NCBI GenBank assembly: GCA_024710445.1 | Contig: JANJUT010000085.1 | Coordinates: 1 to 11,763 of the forward strand | Length of the DNA stretch: 11,763 nucleotides | Direction of reading: 5' to 3' | DNA from: Thiobacillus sp. | Lineage (GTDB): Bacteria; Pseudomonadota; Gammaproteobacteria; Burkholderiales; Thiobacillaceae | Shown: positions 2,810 to 11,019 of the stretch, one piece after another | Layout of the letters: each line of letters starts with the position of its first letter | Numbering within the stretch: the stretch's first letter is position 1 | The notes under the pieces: model-generated | Databases searched by the model: none | The model's input: the letters and a program-made list of their open reading frames with translations, nothing else | What the model was told of the DNA's origin: nothing | Program-made: the position numbers and the translations under genes

Positions 2810-2833
2810 CGCAGACAGGGACAAGGAGTGGCC

Positions 2834-5515
2834 ATGTCTGTCGTTTCATCTGTCTGTTGTTTCTGCGGTACCGGGTGCGGGGTGCTGATTGAATCCGATG
2901 CCGGGCAAGTTACTGGCGTGAAGGGTGATCCTGCGCATCCAGCCAACCATGGCAAGCTGTGTACCAAGGGGGCGGCGCTGGCACTGTCTGCCCAGGCGGG
3001 GGGCCGCGTGCTTTCTCCTGAACTGCGTACCGGCAGGACATCGCCGCGCCAGCAAGTGGGCTGGGATGCGGCGCTTGATCACGTTGCCGGAAAGTTCGGC
3101 TCGATCATTCGCGAACATGGGCCGGATGCCGTCGCGTTCTATATCTCCGGCCAGCTCACCACCGAGGCGTATTACGTTTTCAACAAACTGGCCAAGGGAC
3201 TGATCGGCACCAATAACGTCGATACCAATTCGCGCCTGTGCATGTCGTCCGCGGTGGCAGCCTACAAAGCCACGCTGGGCGCCGATGCGCCACCCGGCTG
3301 CTACGAGGATATCGATCACGCCGGAACGATATTCATCGCCGGCTCGAACACCGCTTATGCCCATCCGATCGTGTTTCGCCGGATTGAGGCGGCACGCAAG
3401 GCCAACCCCCAACTCAGGCTGGTCGTGGTGGATCCGCGCCGTACCGACACGGCCAACGAGGCGGATCTGCATCTGGCCATTTTGCCGGGCACCGACGTGG
3501 CGCTGTTTCACGCCATGCTCAACGTGATGATGTGGGAAGAGCTGACCGATCGCGACAGCATCGCCGCGCACACCGAAAACTGGGCCGAACTGCGCGCGAT
3601 GGTGCGCGAGTACACGCCGGAAAAGGTCGCACCGATTTGTGGCGTGGCAGCGGCCGACATCGTGCAGGCCGCACGCTGGTTTGCGGCCGGTCCGACGCTG
3701 TCGCTGTATTGCCAGGGTTTGAACCAGTCCAGCTGCGGCGTCGACAAGAATGCCGCACTGATCAATCTGCATCTGGCCACCGGGCAGATCGGCAAGCCGG
3801 GCGCGGCGCCGCTGTCGCTGACCGGACAGCCCAATGCCATGGGCGGACGCGAGGTGGGCGGGCTGGCCAATCTGCTATCGGCGCATCGTGACCTTGCCAA
3901 TCCCGGGCATCGCGCTGAAGTCGCGCGTCTGTGGGGAGTGGATGCGGTTCCTGCCGCACCGGGCAAAACGGCGATTGAACTGTTCGAAGCGGTGAAGCGG
4001 GGCGAGATCAAGGCAATCTGGATTGCCGGCACCAATCCCGCACAGTCGATGCCTGACCAGGAACAGGTGCATGAAGCGCTGCAGACGGCGGAGTGCGTGG
4101 TGCTGCAGGAGGCATTTGCCAACACCGAGACGGCGCAGTATGCCGATGTGCTGCTGCCGGCTTGCGCCTGGGGCGAAACTGAAGGCACGGTGACCAACTC
4201 CGAACGCCGTATTTCGCGTGTGCGTGCTGCGGTGCCGCCCCCCGGCGAGGCACGGGCCGACTGGGAGATTGTCAGCGAATTTGCGCGGCGCCTGATGCCC
4301 GAGAAGGGCGCACGACTGTTTGCCTACGCCAGCCCGGAAGCCGTGTTCAACGAACATCGGGAAACCACGCGCGGGCGCGATCTCGATATCACCGGCCTGA
4401 GCTATGCGCTGCTGGAGCAGGCGCCGCGGCAATGGCCGTTTCCGGAAGGCGCGACCGCCGGCACGCCCCGCCTGTATGCGGACGGCCTCTATCCGACCGG
4501 CAGCGGGCGCGCGCGCTTTCATGCGGCGCCGTACCGCCCGGTGGCCGAGCCGATCGACGCGCGTTATCCCCTGCATCTGAACACCGGCCGGTTGCGCGAC
4601 CAGTGGCACGGCATGAGCCGGACCGGGCTGGTGGCCCGTCTGTATTCCCATGTCGAAGCGCCCTTGCTGTCGATGAACCGGCAGGACATGGATCGTCGTC
4701 AATTCAAGGATGGCGATCTGGTGCGGGTCAGAAGCCGGCGCGGCAGCCTCGTCATCAAAGTGCAGGCAAGCGGGGAACTGCGCGCAAGCCAGCTGTTTAT
4801 CCCCATGCATTGGGGGGGGCGATTCATGGCCGGGCATGGGGTGAATACCCTGACGCTCGACAGCGTTGATCCGGTTTCCCGGCAACCGGAACTCAAGCAT
4901 GCCGCCGTGCAGGTGGAAAAAGCCGTGCTGCCGTATCGGCGGACGATCATGCGGCGGGGCGAGGGTGCAAGCCTGCTGCAGTGTGCGCAGGCATTTATCG
5001 GGCAATTCGATTACGCCTCCATCAGTCTCGCCGGACGCGACAACACCGTGCTGGTATTCGAGACCGCGAGCGAAGGCCCGCTGCCCGAGTCGCTGGTGCA
5101 GTCGATGGACGCGGCATTCGGACTGGATGATCCGCTGCTGACCATGAACTACCAGGACGCGCGCCGGGGCATCTGGAAAAAAGTGCGCGTGGACGCAGGC
5201 GTGATTACCGGCGCCCGGCTTTCCGGCGAGACCGCCGCGCGCGACTGGATCAAGGGGTTGATTGCCGAAGGCGCTTCGGCCATGGAGGTGCGCAACTGGC
5301 TGCTGGCGCCGGTCGAACAGGCCCCGGAAGGCAAGGCCGGGCGCGGTCCGATCATATGCAATTGCCTGAATGTGGCCAGGGACGACATCGTCGCGGCTGT
5401 CGCGGCGGGCGCGGATCTGGCTGCGTTGCAGGCCAGTCTCAAGTGCGGCACCGAGTGCGGCTCGTGCGTGCCGGAACTGAAAAACCTGATCGCCAGCAAA
5501 CGGATGGCGGCATGA
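2834..5515 (+). CDS. nasA: Assimilatory nitrate reductase, catalytic subunit with C-terminal BFD [2Fe-2S] domain
   Basis: This cytoplasmic molybdenum enzyme reduces nitrate to nitrite for nitrogen assimilation. It has 893 residues, near the 866 of Klebsiella NasA. The N-terminal [4Fe-4S] motif is Cys8-x2-Cys11-x3-Cys15-x27-Cys43. The bis-MGD oxidoreductase body contains NTNSRLC, whose Cys136 is the expected molybdenum ligand. The dinucleotide-binding domain begins near 577 (NTGRLRDQWHGMSRTG). A BFD-like domain closes the protein (Cys842-x-Cys844 and CGTECGSC at 871-878), an extra electron-entry site typical of NasA. There is no Tat signal. The start is ATG 2834 because AAGGAG at 2823-2828 is well placed for it and would overlap the alternative GTG at 2828. 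No separate NasB-type electron-transfer subunit is encoded in the window. The symbol follows Klebsiella; Pseudomonas uses nasC. Confidence 0.95.
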   Translation: MSVVSSVCCFCGTGCGVLIESDAGQVTGVKGDPAHPANHGKLCTKGAALALSAQAGGRVLSPELRTGRTSPRQQVGWDAALDHVAGKFGSIIREHGPDAVAFYISGQLTTEAYYVFNKLAKGLIGTNNVDTNSRLCMSSAVAAYKATLGADAPPGCYEDIDHAGTIFIAGSNTAYAHPIVFRRIEAARKANPQLRLVVVDPRRTDTANEADLHLAILPGTDVALFHAMLNVMMWEELTDRDSIAAHTENWAELRAMVREYTPEKVAPICGVAAADIVQAARWFAAGPTLSLYCQGLNQSSCGVDKNAALINLHLATGQIGKPGAAPLSLTGQPNAMGGREVGGLANLLSAHRDLANPGHRAEVARLWGVDAVPAAPGKTAIELFEAVKRGEIKAIWIAGTNPAQSMPDQEQVHEALQTAECVVLQEAFANTETAQYADVLLPACAWGETEGTVTNSERRISRVRAAVPPPGEARADWEIVSEFARRLMPEKGARLFAYASPEAVFNEHRETTRGRDLDITGLSYALLEQAPRQWPFPEGATAGTPRLYADGLYPTGSGRARFHAAPYRPVAEPIDARYPLHLNTGRLRDQWHGMSRTGLVARLYSHVEAPLLSMNRQDMDRRQFKDGDLVRVRSRRGSLVIKVQASGELRASQLFIPMHWGGRFMAGHGVNTLTLDSVDPVSRQPELKHAAVQVEKAVLPYRRTIMRRGEGASLLQCAQAFIGQFDYASISLAGRDNTVLVFETASEGPLPESLVQSMDAAFGLDDPLLTMNYQDARRGIWKKVRVDAGVITGARLSGETAARDWIKGLIAEGASAMEVRNWLLAPVEQAPEGKAGRGPIICNCLNVARDDIVAAVAAGADLAALQASLKCGTECGSCVPELKNLIASKRMAA

Positions 5516-5528
5516 ATTCAAGAACCCA

Positions 5529-5645
5529 TTTCATCCGCGAAGGACGCGAAGGGGCACGAAGAAAAGGCTGTTCCTTTAGGGCCGCGTCGAGGTTTTCTCT
5601 TCTTGGGTTCTCTTCGCGTTTCTTCGCGTCCTTCGCGGATAAAAA
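5529..5645. repeat. Inverted-repeat (MITE-like) element between nasA and ybiB
   Basis: A perfect 19-bp arm, ATCCGCGAAGGACGCGAAG at 5533-5551, is repeated inverted at 5622-5640. Weaker complementarity extends inward (GAAGAAAAGG side against the TTTTCTCTTC side). The element fills nearly the whole gap between the nasA stop and the ybiB ATG. Arms built from CGCGAAGGACGCGAAG resemble a dispersed repeat found in many proteobacterial genomes (from memory, not searched). In RNA it could form a long stem that separates or processes the two messages. There is no U-tract, so it is not a typical terminator. Confidence 0.8.
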
Positions 5646-5648
5646 ACC

Positions 5649-6614
5649 ATGAGCTACGCCACGTTGATCCGTCAGATCGAGTCGGGCGAAAGCCTGGCCT
5701 ATGTCGAGGCGCGTGCGCTGGGCGCCGCCCTGCTCGATGGCGGGGTGCCGGAACTGGAAACCGCGGCTTTCCTGGTAGCGCTCAATCAGCGCGACCCCGG
5801 GCTGGATGGGTGGCTCGGCCTGCACATGGCGCTGGCCGAACGCCTGCCTGGTTTCAGCGCACCGACCGGCCCGTATCGCACGGTGGTATTGCCTGCCTAT
5901 CATGGTGTGCGGTCATGTCCGCACCTCACCCCGCTGGTGGCGCTGTTGCTGAAAAGTTTTGGTATCCCGGTTCTGATTCATGGGGTGCTCGAAGGCGGCA
6001 GTGGCGTCGCCGCGGCCTATGTGCTGCGCGAGCTGGGCATCATGCCGTGCAGCACGGCGGCGCAGGTCAATGCCGGCCTGCTCGATGACGGGCTGGCGTT
6101 TGCGCCGGTGGCGCTGCTGAATCCCGGCCTGGCTTCCCTGCTGGCCTTGCGTGCGCGGCTGGGCATCGATGGCTGGGTCACCCGGCTGGTGGCGCAGGCC
6201 GATGTGCTGGGCGAGCATTCGATGCGCGTGACGCCCGTGGCTGCGGAAGCGGAAATGGTGACGACGCAAGTCGTGCTCGAAGCCCTGGGCGGGCAGGCCT
6301 TGATGCTGCAGGGTTGCGAAGGCGAGGCCTTTGCCGATCCGCAACAGCGGCCGGATATGGTGCTGGTGCAGGACGGGCAATCGCAGCGTGTCTACGAAGC
6401 ACAGGCGCACACGCCGTCCCAGGTCAATTTGCCCTCTCTGGATGCCCGTGCAACCGGCACATGGATCGGCAATGTCATGCGCGATCACATGTTCTTGCCC
6501 TTGCCCATCCGCAATCAGCTGGCGGTGTGCCTGTATGCCGCCGGTTACACCGAAGATCTCAATCAGGCGCGTGCGATTACTGCGATCAACGGCTTTGGCC
6601 GGGCGGCCGCGTGA
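5649..6614 (+). CDS. ybiB: YbiB-like protein, TrpD2 / glycosyltransferase family 3 fold
   Basis: The 321-residue protein resembles anthranilate phosphoribosyltransferase in fold and matches E. coli YbiB (320 residues), reported as a nucleic-acid-binding TrpD2 protein. A helical N-terminal domain (about 1-70) is followed by the catalytic-type domain. The PRPP-binding glycine motif of true TrpD (GTGGD) is absent: the matching stretch reads LPAYHGVRS, and the later KHGNR is replaced by IHGVLEG. Tryptophan synthesis is therefore unlikely. Such genes recur in nas/nir clusters of beta- and gammaproteobacteria, which suggests a linked role that remains undefined. The start has no Shine-Dalgarno (the preceding bases are GATAAAAAACC) because the upstream repeat abuts it. 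It is probably transcribed from the nasA promoter. Confidence 0.85.
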   Translation: MSYATLIRQIESGESLAYVEARALGAALLDGGVPELETAAFLVALNQRDPGLDGWLGLHMALAERLPGFSAPTGPYRTVVLPAYHGVRSCPHLTPLVALLLKSFGIPVLIHGVLEGGSGVAAAYVLRELGIMPCSTAAQVNAGLLDDGLAFAPVALLNPGLASLLALRARLGIDGWVTRLVAQADVLGEHSMRVTPVAAEAEMVTTQVVLEALGGQALMLQGCEGEAFADPQQRPDMVLVQDGQSQRVYEAQAHTPSQVNLPSLDARATGTWIGNVMRDHMFLPLPIRNQLAVCLYAAGYTEDLNQARAITAINGFGRAAA

Positions 6615-6804: not shown

Positions 6805-7500
6805 ATGGATATGAGTACCCCCATGGACAAGGGCCCCAGGATGAAGCTGGTGATGGTCGGCAATGGCATGGCCGGTGTGCGCACACTGGAAGAGCTGCTG
6901 AAGCTGGCCCCCGATATCTACGACATCACCGTGTTCGGCGCAGAGCCGCACCCCAACTACAACCGCATTCTGTTGTCGCCGGTGCTGGCGGGTGAGCAGA
7001 CGATGAACGATATCGTGCTGAACCCGCTCGACTGGTACAGCGACAACAAGATCACCCTGCACACGGGCAAGAAGGTGGTGAAGATCGACCGCCGCGCACG
7101 CGCGGTCGAAACCGAAGACGGCACACGCGCCGAATACGACCGCCTGCTGCTCGCCACCGGTTCCAATCCTTTCATGCTGCCGGTGCCGGGCGCCGACCTG
7201 CCGGGCGTGATCAGCTTTCGCGATATTGCCGATGTCGATGCCATGGTGCAGGCGTCCAGCCAGTACCGGCATGCGGTCGTCATCGGCGGCGGCCTGCTCG
7301 GCCTGGAAGCCGCCAATGGCCTGATGAAGCGCGGCATGGACGTGACCGTGGTGCATATCGGCCCGTGGCTGATGGAGCGCCAGCTCGACGAGCCCGCCGC
7401 GCGCCTGCTGCAGAAAAGCCTGGAAGAAAAAGGAATGAAGTTTCTGCTGCAAAAGCAGACGCCTGAACTGGTTTCAAGCCCCTCTCCCGCAAGGGGGTGA
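6805..7500 (+). CDS. nirB: NirB, N-terminal fragment (FAD/NAD-binding part), cut by in-frame TGA
   Basis: This is the first 231 codons of the large subunit of NAD(P)H nitrite reductase. The start is ATG 6805, with GGAG at 6794-6797 seven bases upstream. The FAD-binding motif VGNGMAG lies near the N terminus, ATGSNPFMLPVPG follows, and the NAD-binding VVIGGGLLGLEAA comes after that. Native-looking sequence ends at KQTPELV (codon 7471); the last codons (SSPSPARG) come from a repeat element that supplies TGA at 7498-7500. The remaining NirB sequence resumes in the same frame downstream. Without the 38 or so inserted codons the whole gene would encode about 813 residues, normal for the family. 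Alone, this fragment has the NADH site but lacks the last FAD strand and all iron-sulfur and siroheme domains. Confidence 0.85.
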   Translation: MDMSTPMDKGPRMKLVMVGNGMAGVRTLEELLKLAPDIYDITVFGAEPHPNYNRILLSPVLAGEQTMNDIVLNPLDWYSDNKITLHTGKKVVKIDRRARAVETEDGTRAEYDRLLLATGSNPFMLPVPGADLPGVISFRDIADVDAMVQASSQYRHAVVIGGGLLGLEAANGLMKRGMDVTVVHIGPWLMERQLDEPAARLLQKSLEEKGMKFLLQKQTPELVSSPSPARG

Positions 7501-7587
7501 GGGGTGGGGGAGAGGGAAAATGCGGCGAGCTGCGACGGAAAATCTCCCCCATCCCCAGCCCTTCCCCCGCATGCGGGAGAAGGGAGT
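7474..7587. repeat. Palindromic GC-rich element inserted in nirB
   Basis: About 114 bp interrupt native NirB sequence between codons for TPELV and VAGIRFKDG; the exact ends are estimated. The left half has arms CCCTCTCCC (7480-7488) and GGGAGAGGG (7508-7516). The right half (7543-7586) is a diverged inverted copy of the left, beginning TCTCCCCCATCCCC and containing the perfect palindrome CCCGCATGCGGG (7567-7578). The two halves flank a spacer of about 26 bp. This is the architecture of small palindromic or MITE-like repeats. The length is a multiple of three, so the frame is preserved apart from one TGA. No clear target-site duplication was seen. Confidence 0.8.
7491..7500 (+). promoter_or_regulatory. 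Element-borne Shine-Dalgarno for re-initiation in nirB
   Basis: AAGGGGGTGA differs at one base from the full anti-16S complement AAGGAGGTGA, and the G replacing A can still wobble-pair. It overlaps the TGA stop (7498-7500), and its core ends six bases before GTG at 7504. It lies inside the first hairpin of the repeat, so a ribosome finishing the first cistron would expose it. Confidence 0.5.
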
Positions 7588-9360
7588 CGCGTGGCCGGGA
7601 TCCGTTTCAAGGATGGCGATTCCATCCCTGCCGATCTGGTGGTGATGGCCGTCGGCATCCGCCCCAACACCGAGCTGGCTGAATCCGCCGGGCTGCATTG
7701 CAACCGTGGCGTGGTCGTCAACGACACCATGCAGACCTTCGATCCGCGCATCTATTCCGTCGGCGAATGCGCGGCACATCGCGGGATCGCCTACGGCCTG
7801 GTCGCGCCCTTGTTCGAACAGGCCAAGGTGTGCGCCAACCATCTGGCGCATTACGGCATCGGCCGTTACCAGGGCTCGGTGACCTCGACCAAGCTCAAGG
7901 TCACCGGCATCGACCTGTTCTCCGCCGGCGATTTCATCGGCGGAGAAGGCACCGAATCGATTCTCTATTCCGATCCTCTCGGCGGCGTTTACAAGAAGCT
8001 CGTCATCAAGGACGACAAGCTGGTCGGCGGCGTGATGTATGGCGACACCGTCGACGGTTCCTGGTATTTCTCGCTGCTGCGCGACGGCAAGAATGTCAGC
8101 GAGCTGCGTGACCACCTGATGTTCGGCCAGGATCATTGCGGCAACCTCGGCCACGGCGGCGTCAACAAGGCCGCCACCATGACCGACGACATGGAAGTGT
8201 GCGGCTGCAATGGTGTGTGCAAGGGCGACATCGTCAAGGCGATCCGCGAGAAGGGCCTGTTCACGCTGGAAGACGTGCGCAAGCACACCAAGGCTTCCGC
8301 TTCGTGCGGCTCGTGTACCGGCCTGGTCGAACAGATTCTGGCGGTCACCGTGGGCGGCGATTACTCGCCCGCCACCAAGGCCAGGTCGATGTGCGGCTGC
8401 ACCGACTACACCCATGAAGAAGTCCGTGCGGCGATCCGGCAGAACAAGCTGCTGACGATTCCCCAGGTGATGACCTTCATGGAATGGCGCACGCCCAACG
8501 GCTGTGCCAGCTGCCGTCCGGCGCTCAACTACTACCTGATCTCCACCTGGCCGGGCGAGGCCGAGGATGATCCGCAATCGCGTTTCATCAACGAGCGCGC
8601 CCACGCCAACATCCAGAAAGACGGCACCTATTCGGTGATCCCGCGCATGTGGGGCGGCAACACGACGCCGGCCGAGTTGCGTCGCATTGCCGATGTGGCC
8701 GACAAATACAAGGTGCCGGCGGTTCACGTCACCGGCGGACAGCGCATTGATTTGCTCGGCATCAAGAAGGAAGACCTGCCGAAGATCTGGGCCGATCTCG
8801 ACATGCCGTCCGGCCATGCCTACGGCAAGGCGCTGCGCACGGTGAAGACCTGCGTCGGATCGGAATGGTGCCGTTTCGGCACGCAGAACTCGACCCAGCT
8901 GGGCATCGATCTGGAAAAGGCGTTCTTCAAGATGTGGGCGCCGCACAAGGTCAAGCTGGCGGTGTCCGGCTGCCCGCGCAACTGCGCCGAAGTCGCGATC
9001 AAGGACATCGGCATCATCGGCGTCGATTCCGGCTGGGAAATCTATATCGGCGGCAACGGCGGCATCAAGACCGAGGTGGCGCAGTTCCTGGTCAAGGTGA
9101 AAACCGATCTGGAAGTGATGGAGTATTCGGGCGCCTTCCTGCAGCTGTACCGCGAAGAGGCACGTTATCTCGATCGCACCGTGCACTACATCGAACGTGT
9201 CGGCCTCGACTACGTGAAGAAGAAAATCCTCGACGATGCCGAAGGACGGCGTGCGCTGTATGAGCGCATGGTGTTCGCGCTGTCGGTCGAACGCGATCCA
9301 TGGGTCGAGCGCGCCAGGGAAGGCAAGCTCAAACATGAATTCGAAACTGTTGTGGTCTAA
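7504..9360 (+). CDS. nirB: NirB, C-terminal fragment (BFD domains and siroheme nitrite reductase)
   Basis: This part reduces nitrite to ammonium. From GTG 7504 it has 618 residues, the first 28 or so derived from the repeat. A second candidate start is GTG 7591, with AAGGGAG at 7580-7586, which would begin exactly where native sequence resumes (589 residues). The end of the FAD domain holds TFDPRIYSVGECA (about 78-90). Two BFD-like cysteine sets follow: CGC at 233-235 with CGSC at 268-271, and CGC at 297-299 with CASC at 334-337. The siroheme-[4Fe-4S] ligands are intact: Cys450-x5-Cys456 and Cys490-x3-Cys494. There is no further frameshift or stop over 1.8 kb, so decay is not visible. It is in the same frame as the upstream fragment. 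nirD starts 11 bases after its stop. Confidence 0.9.
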   Translation: MGERENAASCDGKSPPSPALPPHAGEGSRVAGIRFKDGDSIPADLVVMAVGIRPNTELAESAGLHCNRGVVVNDTMQTFDPRIYSVGECAAHRGIAYGLVAPLFEQAKVCANHLAHYGIGRYQGSVTSTKLKVTGIDLFSAGDFIGGEGTESILYSDPLGGVYKKLVIKDDKLVGGVMYGDTVDGSWYFSLLRDGKNVSELRDHLMFGQDHCGNLGHGGVNKAATMTDDMEVCGCNGVCKGDIVKAIREKGLFTLEDVRKHTKASASCGSCTGLVEQILAVTVGGDYSPATKARSMCGCTDYTHEEVRAAIRQNKLLTIPQVMTFMEWRTPNGCASCRPALNYYLISTWPGEAEDDPQSRFINERAHANIQKDGTYSVIPRMWGGNTTPAELRRIADVADKYKVPAVHVTGGQRIDLLGIKKEDLPKIWADLDMPSGHAYGKALRTVKTCVGSEWCRFGTQNSTQLGIDLEKAFFKMWAPHKVKLAVSGCPRNCAEVAIKDIGIIGVDSGWEIYIGGNGGIKTEVAQFLVKVKTDLEVMEYSGAFLQLYREEARYLDRTVHYIERVGLDYVKKKILDDAEGRRALYERMVFALSVERDPWVERAREGKLKHEFETVVV

Positions 9361-9371
9361 AGGAAAACGCC

Positions 9372-9719
9372 ATGAGCCAAACTGATCTGAACCCGTGGAC
9401 CGCTGTTGTCAGCGTCAGCGACATCCCCAAACTCGGCGCGCGCGTGGTGCGCTACGGCACGATCGACATCGCCGTGTTCCGCAATGCCGACGATGAAATC
9501 TTTGCGCTGGAGGATCGCTGCCCGCACAAGGGCGGGCAACTGTCGCAAGGCATCGTCCACGGTAAAAAAGTGACCTGCCCGATGCACGGCTGGAACATCG
9601 AGCTCGATAGCGGATGTGCGTCGGCGCCGGATAACGGCTGTGCGCGCGAATTCGCGGTCAAGGTCGAGGATGGGCGGGTGTGGCTGGACCTGGCCGCTGC
9701 CGAGGCCACTGCAGCCTGA
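9372..9719 (+). CDS. nirD: Nitrite reductase small subunit NirD, Rieske-type
   Basis: The 115-residue partner of NirB is needed for nitrite reduction to ammonium in the cytoplasm. It has a Rieske fold with Cys50-x-His52 and Cys69-x2-His72 (CPHKGG and CPMHGW), the full ligand set for a [2Fe-2S] cluster. E. coli NirD lacks the cluster, while many other bacterial NirDs keep these residues. The ATG at 9372 has AGGA at 9361-9364 seven bases upstream, and the gap to nirB is only 11 bases, so the two are co-transcribed. The length is normal for the family. Confidence 0.93.
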   Translation: MSQTDLNPWTAVVSVSDIPKLGARVVRYGTIDIAVFRNADDEIFALEDRCPHKGGQLSQGIVHGKKVTCPMHGWNIELDSGCASAPDNGCAREFAVKVEDGRVWLDLAAAEATAA

Positions 9720-9807: not shown

Positions 9808-11019
9808 ATGACACGCGACTTCTGGAAGTCGGGGCATACGCCTACGCTGCTGTCGGCATTTTTGTATTTCGATATCGCCTTCATGGTGTGGGTGATGCTG
9901 GGACCACTGGGCGTGCAGATCGCCGCCACGCTGGGCCTCACCGCCGCCCAAAAGGGCATGATGGTGGCCACGCCGGTTCTTGCCGGCGCACTGTTGCGCG
10001 TCCTCATGGGCGTGCTGGTCGATCACCTCAAGCCCAAGAAAGCCGGACTGATTGGTCAACTGGTGGTGATGACCGCGCTGGCCTGGGCCTGGCTGTTCGG
10101 CATACACAGTTACCGTGAAGTGCTCGTTCTTGGGGCAGCGCTCGGCTTTGCCGGTGCGGCCTTTGCTGTGGCCCTGCCGCTCGCCTCGCGCTGGTATCCG
10201 CCGCAGCACCAGGGCACCGCGCTGGGCATTGCGGGGGCGGGCAATTCCGGCACCGTGATCGCGGCCCTGTTCGCACCGGCACTGGCGGTGGCTTATGGCT
10301 GGGGCAACGTATTCGGCCTGGCATTGATCCCGGTGGGGACGGCGTTTCTGGTGTACCTGCTCTTCGCCAGGGATGCGCCCGACTGTCCGCCGCCCAAGTC
10401 CTTGCACCAGTACATGAACGTGCTGAAAGACCGTGATGCCTGGTGGTTCATGTTCTTCTATTTCGTCACCTTTGGCGGCTTCGTCGGACTGGCGTCCAGT
10501 CTCACCATCTACTTCAACGACCAGTACGGCATGCCGCCGGTCGAAGCGGGTTATTTCACTGCCGCATGCGTGTTTGCCGGTTCGCTGGTGCGTCCCATGG
10601 GCGGCATGCTGGCTGATCGCATCGGCGGCATCCGTGCCCTGCTGATCATGTATTTGCTGGCGGGTATTTTTCTCATCATCGTCAGCTTCGGTTCGCCCAA
10701 TGCGTATATCGCGCTTACCGGATTCATGCTGGCCATGAGCAGTCTCGGCGTGGGGAATGGCGCGGTGTTCCAGCTGGTGCCGCAGCGCTTCCGCAAGGAA
10801 ATCGGCGTGATGACCGGCATGGTCGGCATGGCCGGCGGTATCGGGGGTTTCTACCTCGCCGCCAGCCTGGGCTATATCAAGGGGCAAACCGGTGATTACC
10901 AGATCGGCCTGCTGATCTTTGCCGGCTTGTGCTTCGTGGCACTGACCGGACTCACCATGGTGAAGCAGCGCTGGCGCACGACCTGGGGTGCGGCGGCGAT
11001 GTCCGGCGCGCGGGTTTAG
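9808..11019 (+). CDS. narK: NarK/NasA-family MFS nitrate/nitrite transporter
   Basis: The 403-residue inner-membrane protein has about 12 hydrophobic segments and brings nitrate in for NasA, perhaps also exchanging nitrite. The nitrate-signature motifs are visible: GIAGAGNSG at 140-148 and GMVGMAGGIGG at 337-347. Arg64 (ALLRVLMG) and Arg262 (SLVRPMGG) match the two substrate-binding arginines of E. coli NarK (R89, R305). The cytosolic loop between the halves lies near 187-207. The ATG at 9808 has ACGGAG at 9796-9801 six bases upstream. It is downstream of nirBD and probably in the same operon. The Pseudomonas orthologue beside nirBD is called nasA; narK is used here to avoid confusion with the reductase. 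Confidence 0.9.
   Translation: MTRDFWKSGHTPTLLSAFLYFDIAFMVWVMLGPLGVQIAATLGLTAAQKGMMVATPVLAGALLRVLMGVLVDHLKPKKAGLIGQLVVMTALAWAWLFGIHSYREVLVLGAALGFAGAAFAVALPLASRWYPPQHQGTALGIAGAGNSGTVIAALFAPALAVAYGWGNVFGLALIPVGTAFLVYLLFARDAPDCPPPKSLHQYMNVLKDRDAWWFMFFYFVTFGGFVGLASSLTIYFNDQYGMPPVEAGYFTAACVFAGSLVRPMGGMLADRIGGIRALLIMYLLAGIFLIIVSFGSPNAYIALTGFMLAMSSLGVGNGAVFQLVPQRFRKEIGVMTGMVGMAGGIGGFYLAASLGYIKGQTGDYQIGLLIFAGLCFVALTGLTMVKQRWRTTWGAAAMSGARV

Follow-up and report, generated by a model that had tools for sequence, protein, structure and literature searches.

Results

A palindromic insert carrying a stop codon lies within nirB

The window, the whole stretch of Thiobacillus sp. DNA analysed here (11,763 nucleotides), corresponds to contig C4 of a draft genome (G000; 2.45 Mb in 292 contigs, 77% complete). 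On its forward strand lie an open frame for a large molybdopterin oxidoreductase resembling assimilatory nitrate reductases (2828..5515; the NCBIfam matches shown were all below their cut-offs), nirB (6805-9360), nirD (9372..9719) and a NarK-like transporter gene (9808..11019; TIGR00886, 288.6 bits, under the cut-off of 311.7). The original prediction had described the genes downstream of nirB as intact, and this holds: nirD scored over the TIGR02378 cut-off and the transporter frame is open. The space separating the nitrate reductase-like gene from a YbiB-like ORF starting at 5649 is taken up by another palindrome (5529-5644), whose 37-nt arms are 84% complementary.

The whole nirB frame holds one internal in-frame stop, TGA 7498-7500. 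The 5' part runs from the ATG to this stop (6805..7500, 231 aa) and encodes the first portion of the FAD/NAD-binding Pyr_redox region; the 3' part, counted from GTG 7504 (7504..9360, 618 aa), encodes the remaining Pyr_redox region, Rubredoxin_C, two BFD-like [2Fe-2S] domains and NIR_SIR domains. As had been predicted, both parts keep their motifs: the N part matched positions 1-211 and the C part positions 213-790 of the NCBIfam NirB model TIGR02374 (length 794), so that jointly they span nearly the entire model. Within Pyr_redox_2 (291 positions), the N part reaches profile position 208 and the C part begins at 216. A search for NIR_SIR_ferr (PF03460) gave no second match in the recovered, 77% complete G000 genome, and loss of NirB would therefore leave G000 without a recovered siroheme nitrite reductase.

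At the break, a palindromic insert of 114 nt (7474..7587, forward strand) takes the place of a short variable NirB loop, with QTPELV before it and RVAGIRFKDG after it. About five loop codons found in relatives are missing, giving a net gain of ~99 nt; both lengths are multiples of three and the nirB frame is kept, confirming the predicted inverted-repeat insertion of ~114 bp that leaves both halves in one frame with a single TGA between them. The left arm (7479..7521, forward strand) and the right arm (7542..7584, forward strand) are each 43 nt long, separated by a spacer and 74% complementary, pairing at 32 of 43 positions, whereas 200 dinucleotide-shuffled versions of the 114 nt gave no more than 25, and the RNA fold of the insert has z = -3.48. 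The predicted minimum-energy mRNA fold pairs these long arms, not the small hairpin that, by reading, positions 7479-7504 alone could form. Across all six frames of the insert, the only stops are TGA 7498-7500 and one at the extreme end of a reverse frame. The window gave no Rfam match at gathering thresholds, and no target-site duplication was seen by eye at the insert ends, which are blurred by the replaced loop codons.

Restart signals overlap and follow the stop codon

A Shine-Dalgarno-like stretch (7491..7500, forward strand) overlaps the TGA, and GTG 7504 follows three bases after it. This arrangement had been pointed out from the sequence, and its strength was substantiated by an anti-Shine-Dalgarno duplex energy of -16.4 kcal/mol, the best of 595 ATG, GTG and TTG triplets on the forward strand; the corresponding values are -9.5 kcal/mol for GTG 7591 and -7.5 kcal/mol for nirD. 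That second GTG (7591..7593, forward strand) had been placed exactly where native sequence resumes; the codon is present, but native nirB begins again at CGC 7588, one codon earlier. A functional split gene would have a start with a Shine-Dalgarno sequence directly after the stop, as GTG 7504 does. Most of the 7491-7500 stretch is base-paired in the mRNA fold predicted here, but a ribosome terminating at the TGA could melt this pairing; as a mechanism, a restart at GTG 7504 is plausible.

In the small hairpin, a local alternative fold, the TGA falls at a mismatch, and the same stem in the Thiobacillus-type locus L047 is fully paired (by reading). This is as expected for a later change or an error, an argument that depends on the local alternative since the minimum-energy fold pairs the long arms. 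Hairpin L131 of G000 holds a similar TGAGGG stretch, and such letters are thus natural to these repeats. The TGA was absent from the best 120 of 4443 short N-terminal matches, whose identity to the N part is at most 91%.

Relatives carry inserts at the same loop in an open frame

A comparison of nirB among sister strains, which the original prediction had suggested as a check, found the stop in no relative examined, and the element is stop-free in P0118, L037 and L047. Most of 35 aligned Thiobacillus-type loci have a short loop like ELVxGESGRV. At this NirB position L037 and L047 have a half-length version of the window palindrome, which keeps the frame, lacks a stop and makes the loop 39 nt longer than empty ones; these loops recur in genomes G029 and G032 (L006, L013). 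Among the 23 genus loci read (L006-L028), two have this element, one a different 9-aa insert and one an N run, and 19 are empty. A near-full match to the C part occurred in 26 of 35 same-genus genomes, and all 26 are stop-free there, in frames of 731-1290 aa.

Among the best 120 of 8000 scored protein matches, loops could be parsed by pattern in 108; three of these were classed with the window element (P0118, P0059 and P0099, the last a remnant) and 17 with the 9-aa insert. In P0118 (850 aa) the complete element, with a similar spacer peptide, is part of an uninterrupted NirB at the same loop and in the same frame; when the P0118 insert region was used as a query, P0118 alone was returned among 326 candidates. 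The closest protein among the best 120 of 8000, P0001 (98%), has the 9-aa insert at the loop instead of the window element. With so close a sister carrying a different insert, common descent of the window insert with those of L037 and L047 is not established.

Seventeen proteins in dispersed parts of the tree, P0001 and P0005 among them, have the 9-aa insert (GGCSDSSPSGE-like). It ends similarly to the palindrome peptide and may be what a deletion left behind. Some 8 residues further downstream, L050, L052, P0041, P0066 and others contain another small insert (PDLSNVEGDG-like). In L067, from the T. denitrificans RG assembly, a 130-nt N run (3870-3999) crosses the loop, where another hairpin insert has perhaps broken the assembly.

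A structure predicted for P0118 places the insert (residues 227-258), at pLDDT <50, as the link between strands 219-224 and 261-266. This model suggests that the insert occupies a beta-hairpin turn of the NAD-binding domain and that its peptide is disordered. Overall scores were low (mean pLDDT 56, pTM 0.48), with the region before the insert confident and much of the C-terminal half not, and only the N-terminal region was used. Foldseek matches were to ferredoxin- and persulfide-reductase folds, and the three PDB alignments shown are all interrupted around the NirB loop.

Similar palindromes lie in frame in other Thiobacillus genes

The hairpin pattern occurred at nine sites in G000, against zero for the reversed control. 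Three of the nine lie in frame in conserved genes (nirB, nadE and nadC); for the remaining six, reading was limited to the frames. The nadE palindrome sits in the NAD synthase domain (L128:936-2807, contig C162, reverse strand; 761 bits, cut-off 479), and at the insert the protein has 18 more residues than PDB 4f4h. In nadC (L003:702-1610, contig C13, reverse strand; 300 bits, cut-off 198) an apparent in-frame palindrome lies near the N terminus; the profile match begins past the insert, and the preceding residues are NadC-like by reading only.

Six other Thiobacillus genomes were searched with the same pattern, which was found in four and absent in G011 and G016, with 0-1 reversed-control hits per genome. 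Sixteen pattern sites from these genomes were fetched, and the frames at eight loci were run against Pfam. Six sites fell in five conserved genes, namely gmd, a TauD-like gene, gatB, sucB (two sites) and glcE; two further sites lay in frames encoding methylases, though not in the part that Pfam matched, and another frame was without any Pfam hit. The two sites in the sucB linker (L173 and L177, from one genome) are consecutive in-frame palindromes.

With the window element itself as the query (1e-8), matches were obtained in 11 of 56 genus genomes, G000 included, from up to 15 candidates per genome. Nine of the 14 matches listed outside the window are in frame inside genes, encoding two N6-methylases, Gmd, HrpA, an MmeI-type methylase, GlcE (two), pyruvate:ferredoxin oxidoreductase and HypD. 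The remaining five comprise L215, near the end of a phosphonate-binding protein frame, and L209, L210, L214 and L220, for which no known gene was assigned. Several genus copies match one half of the element only. By reading, the element stands at about the same site of gmd in L165 and L212, and likewise of glcE in L217 and L218, and these sites are possible further hotspots.

The NirB loop is occupied by different palindromes across the order

We surveyed the loop more widely by searching a 211-aa NirB segment against 399 genomes of the order, of which 184 matched at 1e-30. The single-piece matches listed (to ~6e-83) were at most 27 nt longer than the query. A second search covered the 26 genomes with a best match weaker than ~1e-66, some of which matched only at contig ends; genomes between ~6e-83 and ~1e-66, and the loop of G196, lay outside this reading. 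In six of the 26 genomes the match was broken at residues 103-110 by an insert at the NirB loop with the frame open, in G417 as far as the contig end. Inverted repeats are present in five of the six inserts, those of G123 (L183), G164 (L180), G180 (L184), G366 (L182) and G417 (L181), and the insert of G239 is without a palindrome by reading.

The G123 insert looks, by reading, like a GTAG-type REP dimer and resembles no other insert. The G366 insert is of an LPPLQGEG type common to the Gallionellaceae record L089 (83% over 104 nt), and the inserts of G164, G417 and G180 have only short C/G-rich tracts in common with others. L180 and L183 are tree sisters (99% SH-aLRT), yet carry different elements. 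From these sequence comparisons, the palindromes at the NirB loop would make up three clear types including that of the window, possibly six, with at least two and perhaps five elsewhere in the order. The insert of L180, ~67 aa in length, consists of tandem copies of a palindromic unit in an open frame.

A quick tree was built from 72 C-part sequences, with L136, L137, L138, L148, L150, L155, L181 and L186 skipped as short or unparsed. The six rows classed with the window element need six changes and the eleven palindrome rows need ten. The rows are thus scattered, and common descent of the inserts is not supported; many within-genus branches of this tree are weak, however, the assignment of P0099 depends on a short remnant, and recombination would give the same picture.

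Among the best 120 of 4443 short N-terminal proteins, repeat-like loop peptides occur in P0129, P0130, P0132, P0160, P0172, P0176 and P0234. By reading, the frame is lost at the NirB loop in P0132 and P0176, and other broken alleles may therefore exist. The same list includes frame breaks without a palindrome (for example P0122 and P0152), so that database errors are also possible.

Neither half of nirB shows clear decay

The original prediction had further proposed comparing substitution patterns in the two fragments. Median dN/dS values for the window were 0.132 in the N part and 0.098 in the C part, similar to the 0.140 and 0.101 obtained among 21 relatives (210 background pairs; 14 of the 35 Thiobacillus-type loci were excluded because the pattern missed their frame). 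No gene-inactivation signal was found in dN/dS of the window nirB against these 21 relatives; the relatives with DNA lie at dS ~0.4-0.7, and at this distance a recent stop would leave no dN/dS trace.

Relative to its 98% sister P0001, the window protein has 20 differences, of which, judged by majority residues, eight arose on the window side and 12 on the P0001 side. At columns that are at least 95% conserved, the window departs seven times (others: median 3, range 0-16), which is slightly high, as under relaxed constraint. Four of the 20 differences fall within ~12 residues either side of the insert, a span picked post hoc, hinting at a recombined tract in this sequence.

Discussion

Origin and consequence of the interrupted nirB

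We consider it probable that a palindrome tolerated in the NirB loop was followed by a later in-frame TGA, resulting in a young inactivation of nirB. The element, its in-frame insertion and the tolerance of the loop are well supported, and a nonsense lesion with young inactivation is the most likely reading of the stop. A GC-rich palindromic element, mobile or recombining, would have entered an insertion-tolerant loop in frame, and in relatives it would be translated within the open NirB frame as a predicted-disordered peptide. The G000 copy would then have gained the in-frame TGA, most likely by a point change after insertion (or through a consensus error). With this TGA the main nirB product would become a 231-aa fragment, and the lesion would be too young for clear decay in either half. 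We infer that the element is mobile, that the stop arrived later and that the fragment is inactive. Introducing a stop is thus most likely not what the element normally does; the TGA would stem from a nonsense mutation after insertion or from a consensus error. The unusually strong Shine-Dalgarno sequence, the well-placed GTG 7504 and the lack of a second PF03460 match in the recovered genome are points against inactivation.

It is unlikely, if credible, that the stop was introduced in error, during assembly or consensus calling of a metagenome bin at a GC-rich hairpin, and that the true gene is an uninterrupted fusion as in P0118. Such an error would fit a draft genome of 292 contigs in which the TGA is nirB's sole lesion and lies at the small-hairpin mismatch, and T. 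denitrificans L067 has its 130-nt N run over the same loop. However, the other window genes checked are open, a similar TGAGGG occurs in hairpin L131, and single-base consensus errors are rare in short-read assemblies.

The original prediction had raised the idea that the element converted NirB into two proteins. For this, translation would terminate at TGA 7498-7500, the hairpin would be opened and reinitiation at GTG 7504 would yield a 618-aa part that forms a working NirB with the 231-aa part. The three-base gap, the duplex energy unmatched among 595 triplets, the position of the break at a hairpin turn and the lack of another recovered NIR_SIR_ferr match all speak for it, and, because both halves are conserved and reinitiation is plausible, a working split NirB is possible. 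Against it, relatives with the element (P0118, L037 and L047) are unsplit, the cut falls inside Pyr_redox_2, the Shine-Dalgarno stretch is mostly paired in the predicted fold and may be a by-product of G-rich arms, and the arrangement is absent from the best 120 of 8000 protein matches and the best 120 of 4443 N-part matches. We therefore regard a split enzyme as doubtful, and the notion of a repeat that splits a gene without killing it is better replaced by that of a repeat entering genes and carried within the open frame, a known kind similar to the Rickettsia palindromic elements. Frequent readthrough giving full-length NirB is very improbable: TGA is the leakiest stop codon and the frame is open past it, but basal readthrough is low and the TGA is followed by G with no special context seen. 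By sequence alone, a split gene, readthrough and fresh inactivation are inseparable.

Comparison with known palindromic elements

Coding palindromes have reportedly been described in Wolbachia. Rickettsia palindromic elements are ~100-150-nt palindromes that lie in frame in unrelated conserved genes and add peptide (PMC2229807, PMC10969869). The window insert shares their size of ~100-150 bp and their inverted repeats (114 nt, 32/43 pairs), and Thiobacillus palindromes of this type lie in frame in nadE, gatB, sucB, gmd, glcE, hypD and hrpA, as well as in a pyruvate:ferredoxin oxidoreductase gene and methylase genes. By analogy, and as predicted from the open frames, the Thiobacillus element would behave like them, the repeat being tolerated as extra peptide. 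The two differ in host group, and the likeness is drawn from descriptions of the Rickettsia elements, not from their sequence; in addition, one NirB loop has here been struck repeatedly by different element types, and one copy bears a stop.

REP singles and dimers are also found inside genes, and different REPs occupy about the same recB site in two Xanthomonas species (PMC3733652). GTAG/CGTC REPs are thus alike in occurring in genes, with recB as a precedent for a shared site, but by reading the window insert has neither tag at its ends. Fusion to ORFs is described for MITEs, small elements with inverted repeats of which ERIC and the Coxiella QMITEs are examples (PMC2229807, PMC5896051); at the nirB insert, whose ends are not sharply defined, no target-site duplication was visible by eye. 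No report of such NirB inserts or of Thiobacillus coding palindromes was listed in searches of the open-licence literature.

Implications

If the split were real, NirB would be a two-polypeptide enzyme in which a palindrome supplies the stop, the window's strongest Shine-Dalgarno sequence and the start at a hairpin turn marked as tolerant by the predicted structure and the insertion record, and in which the two coupled products reassemble; through such a hotspot loop, one gene could naturally become two. In annotation, the stop-bearing nirB would be recorded as a pseudogene or as two genes. In the papers cited here, in-frame coding palindromes come from Rickettsia and from REP- or MITE-rich genomes; in Thiobacillus they lie in core metabolic genes. 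Palindromes of at least three types have repeatedly come to occupy a single NirB hairpin in separate lineages, and the empty, half, whole, stop-bearing and perhaps frame-broken loops provide a natural series for studying how such DNA enters genes, target choice versus protein tolerance, and the cost to the enzyme.
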